Source: a virus. From it: a stretch of DNA of 34,050 bases. The stretch spans positions 1 to 34,050 of the IMG/VR virus record IMGVR_UViG_3300013104_000017, one strand, 5' to 3'. The position numbers were made by a program, and so were the translations under genes. Numbering within the stretch: the first letter of the stretch is position 1; the number at the start of each line of letters is the position of its first letter. The notes below the pieces were generated by a model that did no database searches, was not told the DNA's origin, and was given only the letters and a program-made list of their open reading frames with translations. Shown piece by piece: positions 19,954 to 26,701 of the stretch.

Positions 19954-20255
19954 GACTTGACCCCCTGTGCCTCGAGCTCATCGCGTACGGCATACGCGAG
20001 AGCGAGGATCGCATCGACCGCGGCGAGCGTCTTCGGGATATCCGAAGAGCCGCCGAAGGTGATGCTCTTCGCGTTGACGCGGGCGCTCATCACGGGCGCC
20101 CGGCGCACACCGGCACGCGCGCCCGGCCCGATTGCCGGCGGCTTCGGCCCGAGCTCGACATCGTAAGTCGCCGTGCGCTTCGTCGGGATGATCGTGACGT
20201 CGCCCGACACCATGACCCCGTTGATCTCTTTCGCGGTCTTCGCCTTCGTGCTCAC
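19950..20255 (-). CDS. Unknown 101-aa protein
   Basis: Begins MSTKAKTAKEINGVMVSGDV and ends LALAYAVRDELEAQGVKS. A basic N-terminal strand region (VTIIPTKRTATYDVELG) is followed by a Pro/Gly loop and a C-terminal helix. Not recognised. It overlaps both neighbours by four bases, so it is translated in step with them. Confidence 0.7.
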   Translation of the reverse strand: MSTKAKTAKEINGVMVSGDVTIIPTKRTATYDVELGPKPPAIGPGARAGVRRAPVMSARVNAKSITFGGSSDIPKTLAAVDAILALAYAVRDELEAQGVKS

Positions 20256-20908
20256 TTCTTCGTCCCCTTCTTCGTGGCCGCCTTCTTCGCGGCCTTGCGT
20301 GCGGCTTCGTTCGCCTTGAGCTTCTCGAGCGCGGCCTCGGCCTCGTCGTGCCGGTCGCCCTCGAAGTCGCTATCGATGTCGTCGACCACGTCTTCCGGCG
20401 CGGCCTCGATCGACGGGACGATCGGCGGCTCTTCGGGCGTCTCGGGAACGTCGACCGACTCGGCGGCATCCTGCAAGATGTCGTCGTCGCGCTCGTCACC
20501 GCGAAGGCGCTCGAGCTTCGAGAGCGCGATGCCCTCGATCGTCGAGCCGTCAGCGAAGTCGACCGTTGCGAAGAACTCACCTTCGGTGTGACGGAAGGCG
20601 CGGATCTCACCCGGCTCGGCGAAGCCCTCGACCGCCACGAGGTCGCCCTCGACGAGCAAGTCGTCATCGCTCTCGATGTCAGGCTCGTCGTCCTCAGTGT
20701 CGTATCCGAGCGACGCCTCGCGCATGGCTGACGCCGACTCGACCGCGAGCACGCGCAGCGAACCGGCGATGTCGAGCAACGCCGCCGCGGTGATCTCGCC
20801 GAGCGCGGCTTTCTGGCGCGTCGGGTGCATGCCGTCGATGCGCTTGAGCTCGTCGAGGGCGAGGCGAAGGTCGACCGACCCGTCGCTCTCAGGCTCGTAG
20901 ATGTTCAT
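20252..20908 (-). CDS. Unknown acidic protein with KOW/SH3-like stretch and Lys-rich tail
   Basis: 218 aa, ATG 20908 with GAGAGAGG upstream. Residues about 5-70 are helical. The part DLLVEGDLVAVEGFAEPGEI then RHTEGEFFATVDFADGSTIE (about 85-125) reads like a small SH3-like barrel. The rest is acidic, followed by a basic Ala/Lys tail (ARKAAKKAATKKGTKK). The combination of acidic body and Lys tail recurs in two other left-block proteins. Function unknown; DNA binding by the tail is plausible. Confidence 0.72.
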   Translation of the reverse strand: MNIYEPESDGSVDLRLALDELKRIDGMHPTRQKAALGEITAAALLDIAGSLRVLAVESASAMREASLGYDTEDDEPDIESDDDLLVEGDLVAVEGFAEPGEIRAFRHTEGEFFATVDFADGSTIEGIALSKLERLRGDERDDDILQDAAESVDVPETPEEPPIVPSIEAAPEDVVDDIDSDFEGDRHDEAEAALEKLKANEAARKAAKKAATKKGTKK

Positions 20909-20938
20909 GAGTGACCTCTCTCTTCGGTGGGTGATGCG

Positions 20939-20990
20939 TGGACGGGGGAGGGATCGAACCTCGCGAGCCGCGCCGTGTGCGGCCCCGTCC
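20939..20990 (-). ncRNA. Compact tRNA-like element (acceptor stem plus T-arm)
   Basis: Read on the minus strand from 20990, GGACGGG pairs perfectly with CCCGTCC at 20946-20940, followed by an A in the discriminator place (20939). Directly inside the 3' strand sits a T-arm: GAGG, the canonical seven-base loop TTCGATC, CCTC. Between the 5' strand and the T-arm there are only about 20 bases, which can form one 4-bp hairpin (GCCG-CACA-CGGC). No anticodon arm exists and CCA is not encoded. It lies in the 88-base gap between two leftward genes. It could be a tRNA mimic, an RNA-processing signal, a relic, or the tRNA-end part of an attachment site. Confidence 0.55.
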
Positions 20991-20996
20991 GGTGTC

Positions 20997-21620
20997 CTAC
21001 TTCTTCTTCTTGCCCTTGCCCTTCTTCGGCTCGGGCGCCTTCTTCGCCTTCTTCTTCGGCTCGGGCTCGGCCTTCGCCTTGCCCTTCTTGTCAGCCTTCG
21101 CCGACTTCGAGGGTGTCGTGTCGACCTTGCCGCCCTTCTTCGGGAACGGGTCGAGCGACTTGAGGTAGGCGCGTGCGACCTCGACGTCGTCATCGTCGGC
21201 GTCCTCGAGCTTCCACACGTAGCCGGTGCCGCTCGTCGCGTCGGGCTCTTTGGTCAGGCGACCGAGCACCTTCTCGCCGGTGTCGATGCGGCCGCGCACG
21301 GCGCCCATGAGCCACCCGCCGAAAATCCAGATGTTCTCGTGCTCTTCGCTCTTCTCGGGCTTCTTCTCGTGAAGCTGCACGATGTCGGCGACGATGTGCT
21401 CTTTCGTCGCGCCGGGATTCTTCCGGTCGAACTTGTCCTCGTGCTGCTCGGATCGAAGCGGCGTGATGAGAAAGAGCTTCCCGTCATTCTTGCCGCTCTT
21501 CTTCTCGTCGCCATCGGTGAGCGACCACCCGTCGCCCCCTGCCGGCGCCTCGCTCGGCTTCGCGAACTCATTCGACTCGGTCGACTTCGACGCCTTCTTC
21601 TTGCTCTTGTCCTTAGCCAT
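20997..21620 (-). CDS. Unknown DNA-metabolism-region protein with Lys-rich tail
   Basis: 207 aa, ATG 21620 after GGAAAGGG. A basic start (MAKDKSKKK) leads to a conserved-looking core: GKLFLITPLRSEQHEDKF, VADIVQLHEK, ENIWIFGGWLMGAVRGRID and VLGRLTKEPDATSGTGYVWK (about residues 45-150). The last 50 residues are Lys/Ala/Pro repeats (KAKAEPEPKKKAKKAPEPKK). The core, with its short strands and aromatic residues, could be a single-stranded DNA-binding fold, as similar small proteins in actinophage replication operons are suspected to be, but I cannot confirm that from sequence. Confidence 0.72.
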   Translation of the reverse strand: MAKDKSKKKASKSTESNEFAKPSEAPAGGDGWSLTDGDEKKSGKNDGKLFLITPLRSEQHEDKFDRKNPGATKEHIVADIVQLHEKKPEKSEEHENIWIFGGWLMGAVRGRIDTGEKVLGRLTKEPDATSGTGYVWKLEDADDDDVEVARAYLKSLDPFPKKGGKVDTTPSKSAKADKKGKAKAEPEPKKKAKKAPEPKKGKGKKKK

Positions 21621-21740: not shown

Positions 21741-21962
21741 TTAGGTCGTCTCGGGGTCGTCGAGCGCGAGCGTCATGACGCACCCGCCCTTCGGATTGCC
21801 GAGGTCGCTCATCTTGAACGGGACGCACGTCCCGCGGATGATCCGATCGTCATCGTAGAGGGCGGACGCCTCGACGAGTGCTCGGAGATCCCCGAGCGTG
21901 AGTGTGCGCGTCGGCTCGGTCGCCGCCGAGATCCGCGGCATGTTGTCCATCTTCCCGGCCAT
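21741..21962 (-). CDS. Unknown 73-aa protein
   Basis: Starts MAGKMDNMPRISAATEPTRT, overlapping the stop of the Cas4-like gene (TAATG), and ends GGCVMTLALDDPETT. The middle TLTLGDLRALVEASALYDDD then RIIRGTCVPFKMSDLG resembles a small helix-strand module found beside nuclease genes, but I do not recognise it. Strict coupling to the nuclease gene suggests a helper role. Confidence 0.7.
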   Translation of the reverse strand: MAGKMDNMPRISAATEPTRTLTLGDLRALVEASALYDDDRIIRGTCVPFKMSDLGNPKGGCVMTLALDDPETT

Positions 21963-23707
21963 TACTCGGCCTCGCTCTCTGCCCGGTCGATCTCGGCGAG
22001 CACGTCGATCGAGAGGTTCGCGGCGCGCTTGCCTTCGTTCCGCCATGAGCGCACGTCACCGGCGAGCTTATTACCCTTGCGCCCGAGCGTGAGATCGACC
22101 ACGTGCACGGTCGCCTTGCCCGATCCGGCGGGGAGATGGATGACGAGGCCGACCGTCCGGTCGAGCTTGAGGTCTTCGCGCTCGTGCGTCTCGAGGTCGT
22201 ACCCGGTCGAGCCGGCGTACATCTCAAGTTGCTGTGCGAGCTTCCCGATCCCGTACTCGATCTTCCCGGTCTTCACGTCGATGACGCGGCGGCGTGCGCG
22301 CGCCTCGGCCGGGCGGATGACGTCACCCGTCTTCGGATCGTGCAGCGCGGGAAGCTTGACCATCGCCACGATGTCGAGGCGACCGGCGACTTTGAGCTCG
22401 TCATTCACGACGACGCGCTCACGCTCGACGATCTTCGCCCCGAGCTTGCGCATCGCGTCGGCGTACGCCTCGACGTCGGCCATGTCCGCCGGGGTGATCT
22501 TGCCGTCGGTGAGCAAATCGCCGACGGCGGTGATGCCATCGCGGTCGTGAAGCTCAGTGAGGGCGTGGATATCCGTGCCCTTCGTGGCCTTCTCCCGGCC
22601 GCCGCCGATCTCGAAGACCTCGTCGGCGAGCGCGTTCATCGACTTCTTGAACTCAGCCCATGCGCGATCGACGAGCGTCTTGAGATCGCCGACGCCGAGC
22701 TTGCCCTTCCGGTCAGACCGGCGCGCCTTCGCGATCGCCGTGTCGCGCACGTGTGCGAGGTCGCGGATCTTCGCGATGATCTCGGGCGCGTCATCGTGTG
22801 CGGCGCCTTCGAGAAGGATCCGAAGCTTCCACTCGGTCAGCTTCGACGTGTCCTCGAGGCATGCGATATACGTGGTTGCACGGGTGTATCCGACGAGCTT
22901 TCCGTCGCTCGGCCGCGAGATGAGATATTGGTTGTTGCCGTTCGTCTCGAAGTCGGGGCGCCCGCCGTTGTCACTCGGCTTGGCAAACGTAATCTCGTCG
23001 GCGTCGGCCTTTGCCTCGCCCGCCACGAACTCGCGCCCGACTTCCGTCTCGACGACCTCGACGGCATGCTTCACGGCGTCGACCGCCTCGGCGACCTTCG
23101 ACGTCGCGCGGGCTTCCGCCTTCTCGCGCTTCTTGCGCATCTGGTATTCCGGCTCGCTCTCGCCCTCGTGCGCGTCGGGGCTGACGGCAGGGGTGTCCCC
23201 GCCCTTCGCCTTCGCCTCGGCCTCGCGGGCCTCTCGCTTCGCGCGGATCTTCTCGCGAAGCTCGGCGTCTTTCTCGGCGATGCGCGCGGCACCCTCGGCT
23301 CGGAGCGTGGCGAGTTCGGCTTCCGCCTTCGCCTTCTTCTTCGGCTTCGCCTCGGGATCAGCGACGATCTTCGCGAGTTCGCCGATGCGGTCGAGGTGCT
23401 CGAGATGCGGGTGACGCTCGGGCGTGGTCGCCTCTTCGGCGGGCGCTTCCGGCTCGGGGGCGATCGGCGCTTCGGCCTCGACCGTCATGACGCCAAGTGC
23501 AGCGGCGTCGACCGTCTCGATGGCGTCGACGGCCTTCGCCTTGCCCTTCTTCTTCCCGGGCTTCTCGGCCTTCGCCTTGCCCTTCTTCTTGGCTTTCTTC
23601 TTGCTCGCCTTCGCCTCTTCGGCGCGGCGGGCGAGTTCGGCTTCGATCTCGCGTTCGCGCTTGAGCGCCTTCGCGATCTTCGCGGCCTTGTCCTTCTTCT
23701 TGCCCAT
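21962..23707 (-). CDS. Cas4/RecB-type PD-(D/E)XK exonuclease with long charged N-terminus
   Basis: 581 aa. The C-terminal third carries the nuclease signature: KVAGRLDIVAM (motif II Asp, about residue 446), RRRVIDVKTGK (motif III D-x-K, about 475) and QQLEMYAG (the QxxxY motif, about 494). Such enzymes resect DNA ends for recombination. The first 230 residues are extreme in composition, alternating Lys/Ala/Glu blocks (KKKAKKKGKAKAEKPGKKKG, then acidic and more coiled-coil-like parts), roughly doubling the usual length. I see no Cys cluster of the Cas4 Fe-S type. GAAAGG precedes ATG 23707. Confidence 0.8.
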   Translation of the reverse strand: MGKKKDKAAKIAKALKREREIEAELARRAEEAKASKKKAKKKGKAKAEKPGKKKGKAKAVDAIETVDAAALGVMTVEAEAPIAPEPEAPAEEATTPERHPHLEHLDRIGELAKIVADPEAKPKKKAKAEAELATLRAEGAARIAEKDAELREKIRAKREAREAEAKAKGGDTPAVSPDAHEGESEPEYQMRKKREKAEARATSKVAEAVDAVKHAVEVVETEVGREFVAGEAKADADEITFAKPSDNGGRPDFETNGNNQYLISRPSDGKLVGYTRATTYIACLEDTSKLTEWKLRILLEGAAHDDAPEIIAKIRDLAHVRDTAIAKARRSDRKGKLGVGDLKTLVDRAWAEFKKSMNALADEVFEIGGGREKATKGTDIHALTELHDRDGITAVGDLLTDGKITPADMADVEAYADAMRKLGAKIVERERVVVNDELKVAGRLDIVAMVKLPALHDPKTGDVIRPAEARARRRVIDVKTGKIEYGIGKLAQQLEMYAGSTGYDLETHEREDLKLDRTVGLVIHLPAGSGKATVHVVDLTLGRKGNKLAGDVRSWRNEGKRAANLSIDVLAEIDRAESEAE

Positions 23708-24746: not shown

Positions 24747-25269
24747 CATCGACCCCCGGCATCTCGTCGAGCATCCCGCGCAGCGTATCGGCCGCCTCTT
24801 GCCATTCGCGAAGAAGCTCGGCGCGCCCCTCGCGGCGACCCTTCTCTCGGCCCGCGTCGTAACCGGCGCGCATCCCGCGCTCTCTCGCCACGCGCTCACG
24901 TTCGACGATGACCGGCTCGAGCCCGACGGCGTCGATCGCCCGACGGCGGATCTCGTCAATCACGTGTTGCAACGTCGGCCCGAGCTCGTGCCGCAATACT
25001 TCCCGCTGCCGGGCGTGGCGGATCTTGCGCGCCTCGTCCGTCTCGATCGCATCGAACATCGCGCGAGCATCCGTTGACATATAGATCGGTGCTCGATAAA
25101 GCGGGTAGAAGATCAGATCCCGCGAGACGTCGGCCGCGATCGGCAGGGCGCCCCGGATGCCGATCGAGTCTCGACCGTCGACCAATTGCGACGCGAAGCC
25201 GGGAAGCGCCTCGGTCAACATCTCGATTGCGACGTCGGCCGGATTGATATCGGTGGGTAGCGTGCTCAC
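24733..25269 (-). CDS. Unknown helical protein
   Basis: 178 aa with a GTG start (25269) overlapping the methyltransferase stop as GTGA. The N-terminal half has DINPADVAIEMLTEALPGFA and DLIFYPLYRAPIYMSTDARA. The second half is a long charged helix (QREVLRHELGPTLQHVIDEI; VERERVARERGMRAGYDAGR; EKGRREGRAELLREWQEAAD), probably a coiled coil. Not recognised. Its coupling to the methyltransferase suggests joint expression. Confidence 0.7.
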   Translation of the reverse strand: MSTLPTDINPADVAIEMLTEALPGFASQLVDGRDSIGIRGALPIAADVSRDLIFYPLYRAPIYMSTDARAMFDAIETDEARKIRHARQREVLRHELGPTLQHVIDEIRRRAIDAVGLEPVIVERERVARERGMRAGYDAGREKGRREGRAELLREWQEAADTLRGMLDEMPGVDDVEE

Positions 25270-26444
25270 GATGTCACCTCTCGAAGAATCGCCTCGGCCA
25301 TGAGCGGCGGGACGGCGTTGCCAATCTGTAGGAATTGCTTCGTCCTCGTGCCCGAGAACGTGAAGCCCTTGGGGTAGCTCTGCAGCGCCGCGGCCTCTTC
25401 GACCGTGACGCGCTCGGCGCCCTCGGGGCGGCCGGGGTATTCGCGGCCTCGACGGCGGTCGTCGGCGTTCACCTTGTGGCCGGGCGCCATGACGCGAGGG
25501 TCGCCCATCAGCGTTGTCGCGGGGCGCGTGCGCGTCCATGAGCGGGCTTTCTCAGTGAGGTGTTGCGCCGGAAGGTCGGTTGCGCGAAGGTCGCGGGCAC
25601 GGTAGCCGTCGGGCGTCGCCTCGCCCTTCCCGTCAGCCTTCCGTGCGAAGCCGACATGCCATGCGCCGCGGCTCTTCTCGCGCTCGATCGCGGCCTTGCC
25701 GCCGGATCCGCCCACGCCCTCGGCGCGGCCGATCGCGTTCCCCGCGGTGACCATCGGGCGTTCGGTCATGCCCCACCCGAGAGCCTCGGCCATGCTCACC
25801 CACGGCTTCACGCCGGGGTCGAGCCGCTTCGGGTCGCGCGAGTAATACCGCGAGTGCGTCGGGGTCGGCGGCTTCGCCTCTTTCCCGTCGGCACGCGCGA
25901 TCAGGATCGCACGACGCCGTGTCTGCGGGACGCCGTATTGCTCGGCGTTGACGATCCCCACCCACACCGAGTAACCCCATCGGCGCATCTCTTCGGCGCA
26001 TGCTTCCCACACGGGGAGGACGGGTGGCACCTGCTCGAAGACGACATGCGTCGGGAGGTCACGGGCGACATGCGCGAGGGGGGTGAGCACGAGAGCCGTA
26101 CGCGGGTCGTGCGCCTCGCCGAACGCGCGAAGGCGAGCGGGGTCGTGGTAGGCGCCCGTCGTGATGGCCTCGAGGACGTGATCGAGCGCCTTCCGCCCCG
26201 CGCCGCCGCCCGCCATCGAGAACGTCTGACACGGCGGCGAGGCGATGAGAAGGTCGTACGAGAGGCGCCACGTCGAGGCGTCTCCGAGAAGCCCTTCCCA
26301 CACGTCATTGTAAAAAGTGAACATGCCGTTCTCGGTGCGCGTCGCGACGGCCTCGGGCATGATCTCAACGCCCATCTCGTCGATGCCGATGCGCTGACAT
26401 GCCACACCCCACCCCGTACCCGCGAAGAGATCGAGGGCGATCAC
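25266..26444 (-). CDS. DNA (cytosine-5) methyltransferase
   Basis: 392 aa, GTG start at 26444 overlapping the stop of the LPATG gene (GTGA). Transfers methyl from S-adenosylmethionine to C5 of cytosine. Family motifs are in order: I, DLFAGTGWG (5-13); IV, SPPCQTFS with catalytic C72 (69-76); VI, FEQVPPVL (136-143), where the usual ENV is EQV; VIII, VPQTRRRAILIA (172-183); X, LQIGNAVPP near the C-terminus. The region between VIII and X is the target recognition domain. No restriction partner is present, so it most likely protects phage DNA from host enzymes. Confidence 0.9.
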   Translation of the reverse strand: MIALDLFAGTGWGVACQRIGIDEMGVEIMPEAVATRTENGMFTFYNDVWEGLLGDASTWRLSYDLLIASPPCQTFSMAGGGAGRKALDHVLEAITTGAYHDPARLRAFGEAHDPRTALVLTPLAHVARDLPTHVVFEQVPPVLPVWEACAEEMRRWGYSVWVGIVNAEQYGVPQTRRRAILIARADGKEAKPPTPTHSRYYSRDPKRLDPGVKPWVSMAEALGWGMTERPMVTAGNAIGRAEGVGGSGGKAAIEREKSRGAWHVGFARKADGKGEATPDGYRARDLRATDLPAQHLTEKARSWTRTRPATTLMGDPRVMAPGHKVNADDRRRGREYPGRPEGAERVTVEEAAALQSYPKGFTFSGTRTKQFLQIGNAVPPLMAEAILREVTS

Positions 26445-26701
26445 GAGTCCCGCCCCTTGCGACGGGCGAGCATGACGATGCCTGACCCGATGAGCACCGC
26501 GGCGAGCAGTGACGAGGCGACGATCGCGCCGGGGTCGACACCCGTGGCGGGCAACGGCTCGCGCGTCACCGTGACCGTCGCGCACGTGATCGTGCCGTTG
26601 CCGATCTCCCATCCGGCATCGCCGCACTCGGGCGGCGTCGTGGCGGGTGGCGGGCATCCGACGTAGGTGTCGGCCTTGCATGCTTCGATCGTGATGGTCA
26701 T
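26441..26701 (-). CDS. Mini-protein with LPATG sortase signal
   Basis: 86 aa. The C-terminus is a textbook cell-wall sorting signal: LPATG (residues 50-54), a hydrophobic helix (GAIVASSLLAAVLIGSGIVM, 58-77) and a positive tail (ARRKGRDS). The first 49 residues contain four Cys (8, 16, 26, 40), a Pro/Thr-rich loop (CPPPATTPPEC) and strand-like TITCATVTVTREP. No N-terminal signal peptide is visible, which is odd for a sortase substrate, although the single helix might insert with the N-terminus outside. The gene is coupled to neighbours by ATGA and GTGA in the early operon, so the product would be made early. Confidence 0.75.
   Translation of the reverse strand: MTITIEACKADTYVGCPPPATTPPECGDAGWEIGNGTITCATVTVTREPLPATGVDPGAIVASSLLAAVLIGSGIVMLARRKGRDS

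Follow-up and report, generated by a model that had tools for sequence, protein, structure and literature searches.

A tRNA-like element without an anticodon arm at a gene junction of a Microbacterium-type siphophage and its relatives

RNase Z and the CCA-adding enzymes use the acceptor/T-arm half of tRNA. RNase P likewise binds the stack of T-arm and acceptor stem, and its binding has been described as requiring the T-loop, with a dispensable D-loop (PMC4919913). Phage transcripts with tRNA-like or stem structures are among the RNAs reported to be cut by RNase P, namely, the C4 antisense RNA of P1/P7, M3 RNA, and the gene 32 (SSB) mRNA of T4, which was the earliest mRNA to be reported as a substrate of RNase P (PMC11143913). 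These RNAs are not known to share the tRNA descent and junction conservation of the element presented here. Mitochondrial tRNA punctuation resembles the present case in that a tRNA-shaped unit between genes is proposed as a cutting mark for RNase P/RNase Z. However, the unit described here belongs to a phage and is non-decoding, and its cutting is predicted. The pseudo-tRNA (tRNA-Other) of Bacillus cereus is also a tRNA-like RNA, reported to be non-functional in translation (PMC3399842), but it is chromosomal and island-associated and lies outside the set compared below. The tRNA-like structures of plant viruses imitate the acceptor/T-arm half in viral RNA; they are 3'-terminal with pseudoknots, whereas our element is a plain tRNA-derived fold between genes. 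In the open-access literature searched, no description of this element was found.

Structure and detection of the element

The window, by which we mean the whole 34,050-nucleotide stretch analysed (IMG/VR record IMGVR_UViG_3300013104_000017), is a Microbacterium-type siphophage contig, and its closest named phages are Wyvern, Isperia, and OscarSo. Read directly, minus-strand positions 20990..20939 are GGACGGG-GCCGCACACGGCGCGGCTCG-CGAGG-TTCGATC-CCTCC-CCCGTCC-A (Table 1). The T stem abuts the acceptor 3' strand with no spacer and the register is exactly that of tRNA; four of the five T-stem pairs are formed and position 49-65 is C.C. A first-pass annotation had reported a 7-bp acceptor stem, a discriminator A, and a TTCGATC T-arm in exact tRNA geometry, which was borne out. 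Its description of the D/anticodon part as replaced by approximately 20 bases with one small hairpin also held: the middle is 20 nt long and forms a single hairpin in the centroid structure, versus two smaller hairpins in the MFE structure. The RNA fold of the element reached -26.4 kcal/mol, with pairing probabilities of 0.99 (acceptor) and 0.97 (T stem), and its energy was only mildly better than that of shuffles (z -1.7). The GGTTCRANYCC box occurs once in the window, in this T-arm.

Table 1. Positions of the element, its parts, the flanking genes, and comparable features at other junctions
Feature	Position	Strand	Description and basis
Gene A	20997..21620	-	207 aa, phrog_870, Lys-rich tail; upstream of the element
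tRNA-like element	20939..20990	-	Acceptor stem, small hairpin, T-arm, discriminator A; sequence, fold, and homology
Acceptor 5' strand	20984..20990	-	GGACGGG; 7/7 WC pairs with 20940-20946
Small hairpin	20967..20983	-	GCCGC-ACACGGC-GCGGC, in place of D and anticodon arms; centroid structure
T-arm	20947..20963	-	CGAGG-TTCGATC-CCTCC; sequence
Acceptor 3' strand	20940..20946	-	CCCGTCC, followed by A73 at 20939; sequence
G-poor leader	20909..20938	-	CGCATCACCCACCGAAGAGAGAGGTCACTC, with gene B RBS; first part common to L139 and cluster EG
Gene B	20252..20908	-	218 aa, downstream orphan; conserved in Wyvern, Isperia, OscarSo, L007, and L139
G-poor CA-rich leaders	window 20909-20938; L139 748-777; L163 1527-1555		
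GACCCGA-loop hairpins	L134, L136, and L138 junctions; PrincePhergus L168; SadLad L181		

The element shares with phage-encoded tRNAs (RF00005) the acceptor stem, the T-arm, the TTCRANY loop, and A73. It differs in that a D-arm and an anticodon arm with a 7-nt loop are absent, ARAGORN found no tRNA in the window, and Rfam gave no match there at the gathering score. Covariance-model and tmRNA searches had been recommended by the first-pass annotation: the relaxed-threshold Rfam search returned a weak tRNA-Sec match exactly on 20939-20990 (13.3 bits, E 3), and the ARAGORN tmRNA search of the window was negative and a tRNA-like domain combined with a tag reading frame was not found. The site does not resemble an intrinsic terminator, as the tail, ACGCATCACC, has no U-tract and a terminator scan did not report it.

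Under a loose chance model (G-U allowed, 4/5 T-stem pairs, a middle of 8-59 nt, Markov-1 sequence), 0.29 such shapes are expected per window; therefore, the geometry alone is weak evidence. In 80 Mb of Markov-1 sequence there was no occurrence of the strict form, defined by GGTTCGANYCC, 4 WC T-stem pairs, and a 7-WC acceptor; its T-arm by itself has an expectation of 0.03 per window in such sequence. Since a 5' strand matching the C-rich 3' strand arose in 4-6.5% of shuffles, the window 5' strand by itself is modest evidence. While the shape by itself is suggestive, the element is secured by its homology to those of contig L139 and cluster EG, described below. Judged from sequence comparisons, the tRNA-like feature at 20939-20990 is real, and is neither a product of chance nor unique.

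The junction in related phages

Both flanking genes belong to the replication region and are on the minus strand. The stop codon of gene A is followed after 6 nt by the element, which occupies most of the 88-nt gap to gene B (ATG at 20908). In 12 relatives (Wyvern, Isperia, OscarSo, FuzzBuster, SM23, and seven IMG/VR contigs), gene A is followed by a GC-rich hairpin only (-34 to -45 kcal/mol for the whole intergenic fold) and the tRNA-like part is absent from the gap, from which we conclude that the element is dispensable at the gene A/gene B junction. The same junction of L139, an IMG/VR contig, carries a hairpin and then a full cloverleaf, which ARAGORN reports as tRNA-Ala(agc); its Rfam score is 27.3 bits, slightly below the 29-bit gathering score. 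The window and this single metagenomic contig are 87% identical over 45 nt (E 5e-12 against a small sequence set); the aligned stretch takes in the T-arm and the acceptor 3' strand and extends into the leader that precedes gene B. On the assumption that the 5' strands are homologous, the acceptor of the window differs from that of L139 by a compensatory change (C5-G68 to G5-C68) and by G3.U70 to A3-U70; the outermost T-stem pair is present in L139 and lost in the window. The alignment shows that the window element either derives from the tRNA gene at the L139 junction or has a common ancestor with it. The first-pass annotation had taken the complementary 5' strand as an argument against simple capture of a tRNA end. 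This argument did not survive, because the L139 cloverleaf is homologous and the 5' match is a 4-6.5% event. An early idea that the element was the hairpin of the relatives plus an insertion was dropped once L139 was found. A search of IMG/VR with the DNA motif GTCCACGCATCACCCAYCG returned only L139, plus two matches within unrelated sequence. The tRNA-Ala of vB_MoxS-R1, which resembles the D/anticodon region of L139, sits elsewhere and was left out of the comparison.

Approximately 40 named Microbacterium phages of cluster EG carry a hairpin and a tRNA-like element after the SSB gene. The SSB gene (phrog_44) and its stop are followed there by a 13-bp hairpin, 2-4 nt, the tRNA-like element, the G-poor leader CACCATCACCACCAACGGAAGGA, and the next gene. 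Searching with the Squash junction returned 37 records with a coverage of 80% or more. The distance from hairpin end to acceptor is 2-4 nt in L139, cluster EG, and SadLad. The window shares with this cluster a similar T-arm, acceptor 3' strand, and CAYCACC-type leader, and is 91% identical to Hyperion over 33 nt with flank and leader included. It lacks the preceding GC-rich hairpin, which L139 has (only the 6 nt noted above separate stop and acceptor), and its element follows a phrog_870 gene instead of a phrog_44 SSB gene. Blastp found no similarity between gene A and the Squash SSB. The candidate assignment of gene A as an OB-fold SSB was rejected, being unsupported by blastp, Pfam, a PDB profile search, and a low-confidence AlphaFold model (pLDDT 64), the predicted fold of which had no informative PDB matches. 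Related elements lie ahead of DNA polymerase I in PrincePhergus and Ixel, and one was found in the Curtobacterium phage Nonagon. By homology, the window element is not a one-off; it is a member of a recurrent family.

Rfam scored the elements of Marcie, PrincePhergus, Fizzles, and Ixel at 51-54 bits (Marcie being the top, 54 bits) and had no match for those of Squash, Casend, Phinky, SadLad, and others. Database labels for the element at one junction include tRNA-Ser, tRNA-Tyr, tRNA-Val, and tRNA-OTHER, or the element is uncalled. Homologous elements in MW712724, OM203157, OP172871, MT553342, and MT639641 are labelled Ser, Ser, OTHER, Tyr, and Val, respectively, and the conflict among these five records is likely misannotation. 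The published account of OneinaGillian gives 0 tRNAs (PMC9224216). Downstream of nearly every tRNA-like element there is a G-poor, CA-rich leader carrying a GGAAGGA-type RBS, and the genes behind it are unrelated. Loops containing GACCCGA are common to GC-rich hairpins of unrelated phages and may represent a recurrent hairpin type.

Conservation of the stems and the middle

Acceptor and T-stem pairs were compared among 14 distinct elements. Pairing was retained in 98.2% of acceptor/T-stem cells and two-sided changes were found at 6 of the 12 pairs; these counts lean towards the structure because the acceptor 5' strands were selected for their pairing and the rows adjusted manually to the structure, and the match of a single acceptor 5' strand often has a p of only 0.02-0.2. 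The covariation score was 0.456, versus 0.142 in shuffled alignments and 0.06-0.12 when slid. Compensatory changes, for which the first-pass annotation had advised a comparison with relatives, were thus detected, the change at 5-68 relative to L139 being one example. Positions G1, G2, G53, T54, T55, C56, A58, C61, C71, and C72 were invariant in the 14 elements, including the pairs G1-C72, G2-C71, and G53-C61, and A73 was present in 13. An encoded CCA followed A73 in only three.

The length of the middle varied between 20 and 90 nt. A D-arm (TAGCTCA..GAGC) is retained in several elements and also defines the end of their acceptor; none of the folds had a clear standard anticodon arm (5 bp with a 7-nt loop), and in this respect the elements of the relatives also differ from tRNA (RF00005). 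An identical arm-less mini-form with a 29-nt middle is present in Casend, Grassboy, Namago, and CandC, which belong to two genera. Since this form and the 20-nt form of the window carry different stems, the arm-less form arose at least twice. BirdInFrench (middle of 23 nt) and Pepe25 (31 nt) have similar arm-less forms that are less regular and look partly decayed. Where stems differ at one locus, part of the difference could be due to independent captures of different tRNAs and not to compensatory change. The comparison shows that these elements have retained the acceptor/T-arm half but not the decoding half, from which we infer selection on the acceptor/T-arm stack.

Proposed role in transcript cutting and alternative readings

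Our favoured reading, on which we are evenly poised, is that the 52-nt element is a tRNA-derived mRNA boundary element that keeps the part recognised by RNase P/RNase Z, with putative cleavage at both ends. In this reading it belongs to a recurrent Microbacterium phage set in which the acceptor/T-arm is kept and the D/anticodon half is misshapen or lost. The window element has the acceptor/T-arm stack with G1-C72 and the T-loop expected of an RNase P/RNase Z substrate. In the mechanism that we consider most likely, host RNase P would recognise this stack in a polycistronic transcript and cut before G1, and RNase Z would cut after A73. These cuts would split the upstream message from a downstream message beginning with the G-poor leader. 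The stable hairpin directly 5' of the predicted RNase P site in L139 and cluster EG may shield the 3' end created by the cut. At the window junction the compact element would act alone, and in the 12 relatives the hairpin alone occupies the site. We favour a cis role in transcript cutting because of the intergenic position, the adjoining hairpin, and the shared leader. The T4 gene 32 mRNA, also from an SSB gene, offers a precedent. Several observations argue against a cutting mark: the window copy has the C.C at 49-65 and no upstream protective hairpin, the 12 relatives do without the element, no such element lies downstream of the SSB genes of Tyrumbra, Wheelbite, and Schmidt, and the copies of Pepe25 and BirdInFrench appear partly decayed.

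Some of these observations would also fit a non-functional relic, i.e., a decaying phage tRNA gene with a deleted anticodon half, in which the acceptor/T-arm remains by recency. This reading is supported by the clear homology to the L139 cloverleaf, the mismatch in the window T stem, the decay in Pepe25, and the many relatives without the element. We nevertheless regard it as rather unlikely, because several lineages show two-sided changes that preserve the stems alongside a scrambled middle, the mini-form persists unchanged in four phages of two genera, and the anticodon half was lost at least twice with the stems kept each time. The relic and the RNase P/Z signal, both among the options listed by the first-pass annotation, became the two leading readings. 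Its third option was a mimic that engages a tRNA-binding protein. Such a mimic, binding EF-Tu, a CCA-adding enzyme, or a tRNA modification enzyme to regulate the flanking genes or serve as a decoy, appears distinctly improbable: encoded CCA is scarce (3/14), and the intergenic location and common leader suggest a cis role, even though these proteins recognise the acceptor/T-arm half and A73 is nearly constant (13/14).

It is improbable that only the stem matters, with a GC-rich 3'-end or terminator hairpin as in the relatives and an incidental tRNA look. L139 and cluster EG preserve the T-loop sequence and the tRNA register and carry a separate hairpin as well, and the window site has neither a U-tract nor a terminator match; on the other side stand the strong hairpin at this junction in the 12 relatives (-34 to -45 kcal/mol) and the start of the outer stem 6 nt past the gene A stop. 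An attachment site, or a 3' end recently captured from a host tRNA, is highly improbable. The T-arm and acceptor 3' strand are the usual attB part of tRNA genes, but the 24-nt 3' end of the element matched none of 84,980 species genomes, a search of 396 Actinomycetales genomes gave no tRNA within 3 mismatches, and no integrase was found among the scanned right-half ORFs of the window or in OscarSo; the two genome searches led us to reject host capture and attP as candidates. A degenerate 22-nt pattern matched mainly tRNA-Tyr genes of other phyla, and the five actinobacterial matches examined with ARAGORN were not tRNAs.

Returning to the cutting mark, we propose, as a generalization somewhat less likely than not, that actinobacterial phages repeatedly turned a tRNA gene into a non-decoding cis cutting mark, which may be called 'phage tRNA punctuation'. 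Selection would keep only the acceptor/T-arm stack read by RNase P/RNase Z, so that the anticodon half could diverge or be lost, and the mark would part the message of a DNA-replication gene from the next message. Phage tRNAs are usually taken to assist translation. If true, this proposal would provide a natural series from tRNA to a minimal RNase P/Z signal at fixed gene boundaries, would account for the conflicting or missing tRNA annotations at the junction, and would caution that genes annotated as phage tRNAs are perhaps not always tRNAs; cluster EG on M. foliorum would be an easy laboratory test system.

Two further genes of the window were noted. A DNA methyltransferase (phrog_116; 25266-26681, minus strand) lies in the replication arm. 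A Cas4/RecB-like exonuclease (phrog_466; 21962-23707, minus strand) has an N-terminal region of approximately 180 aa that is unusually rich in Lys, Glu, and Ala, and Lys-rich C-terminal tails are also present on gene A and gene B.
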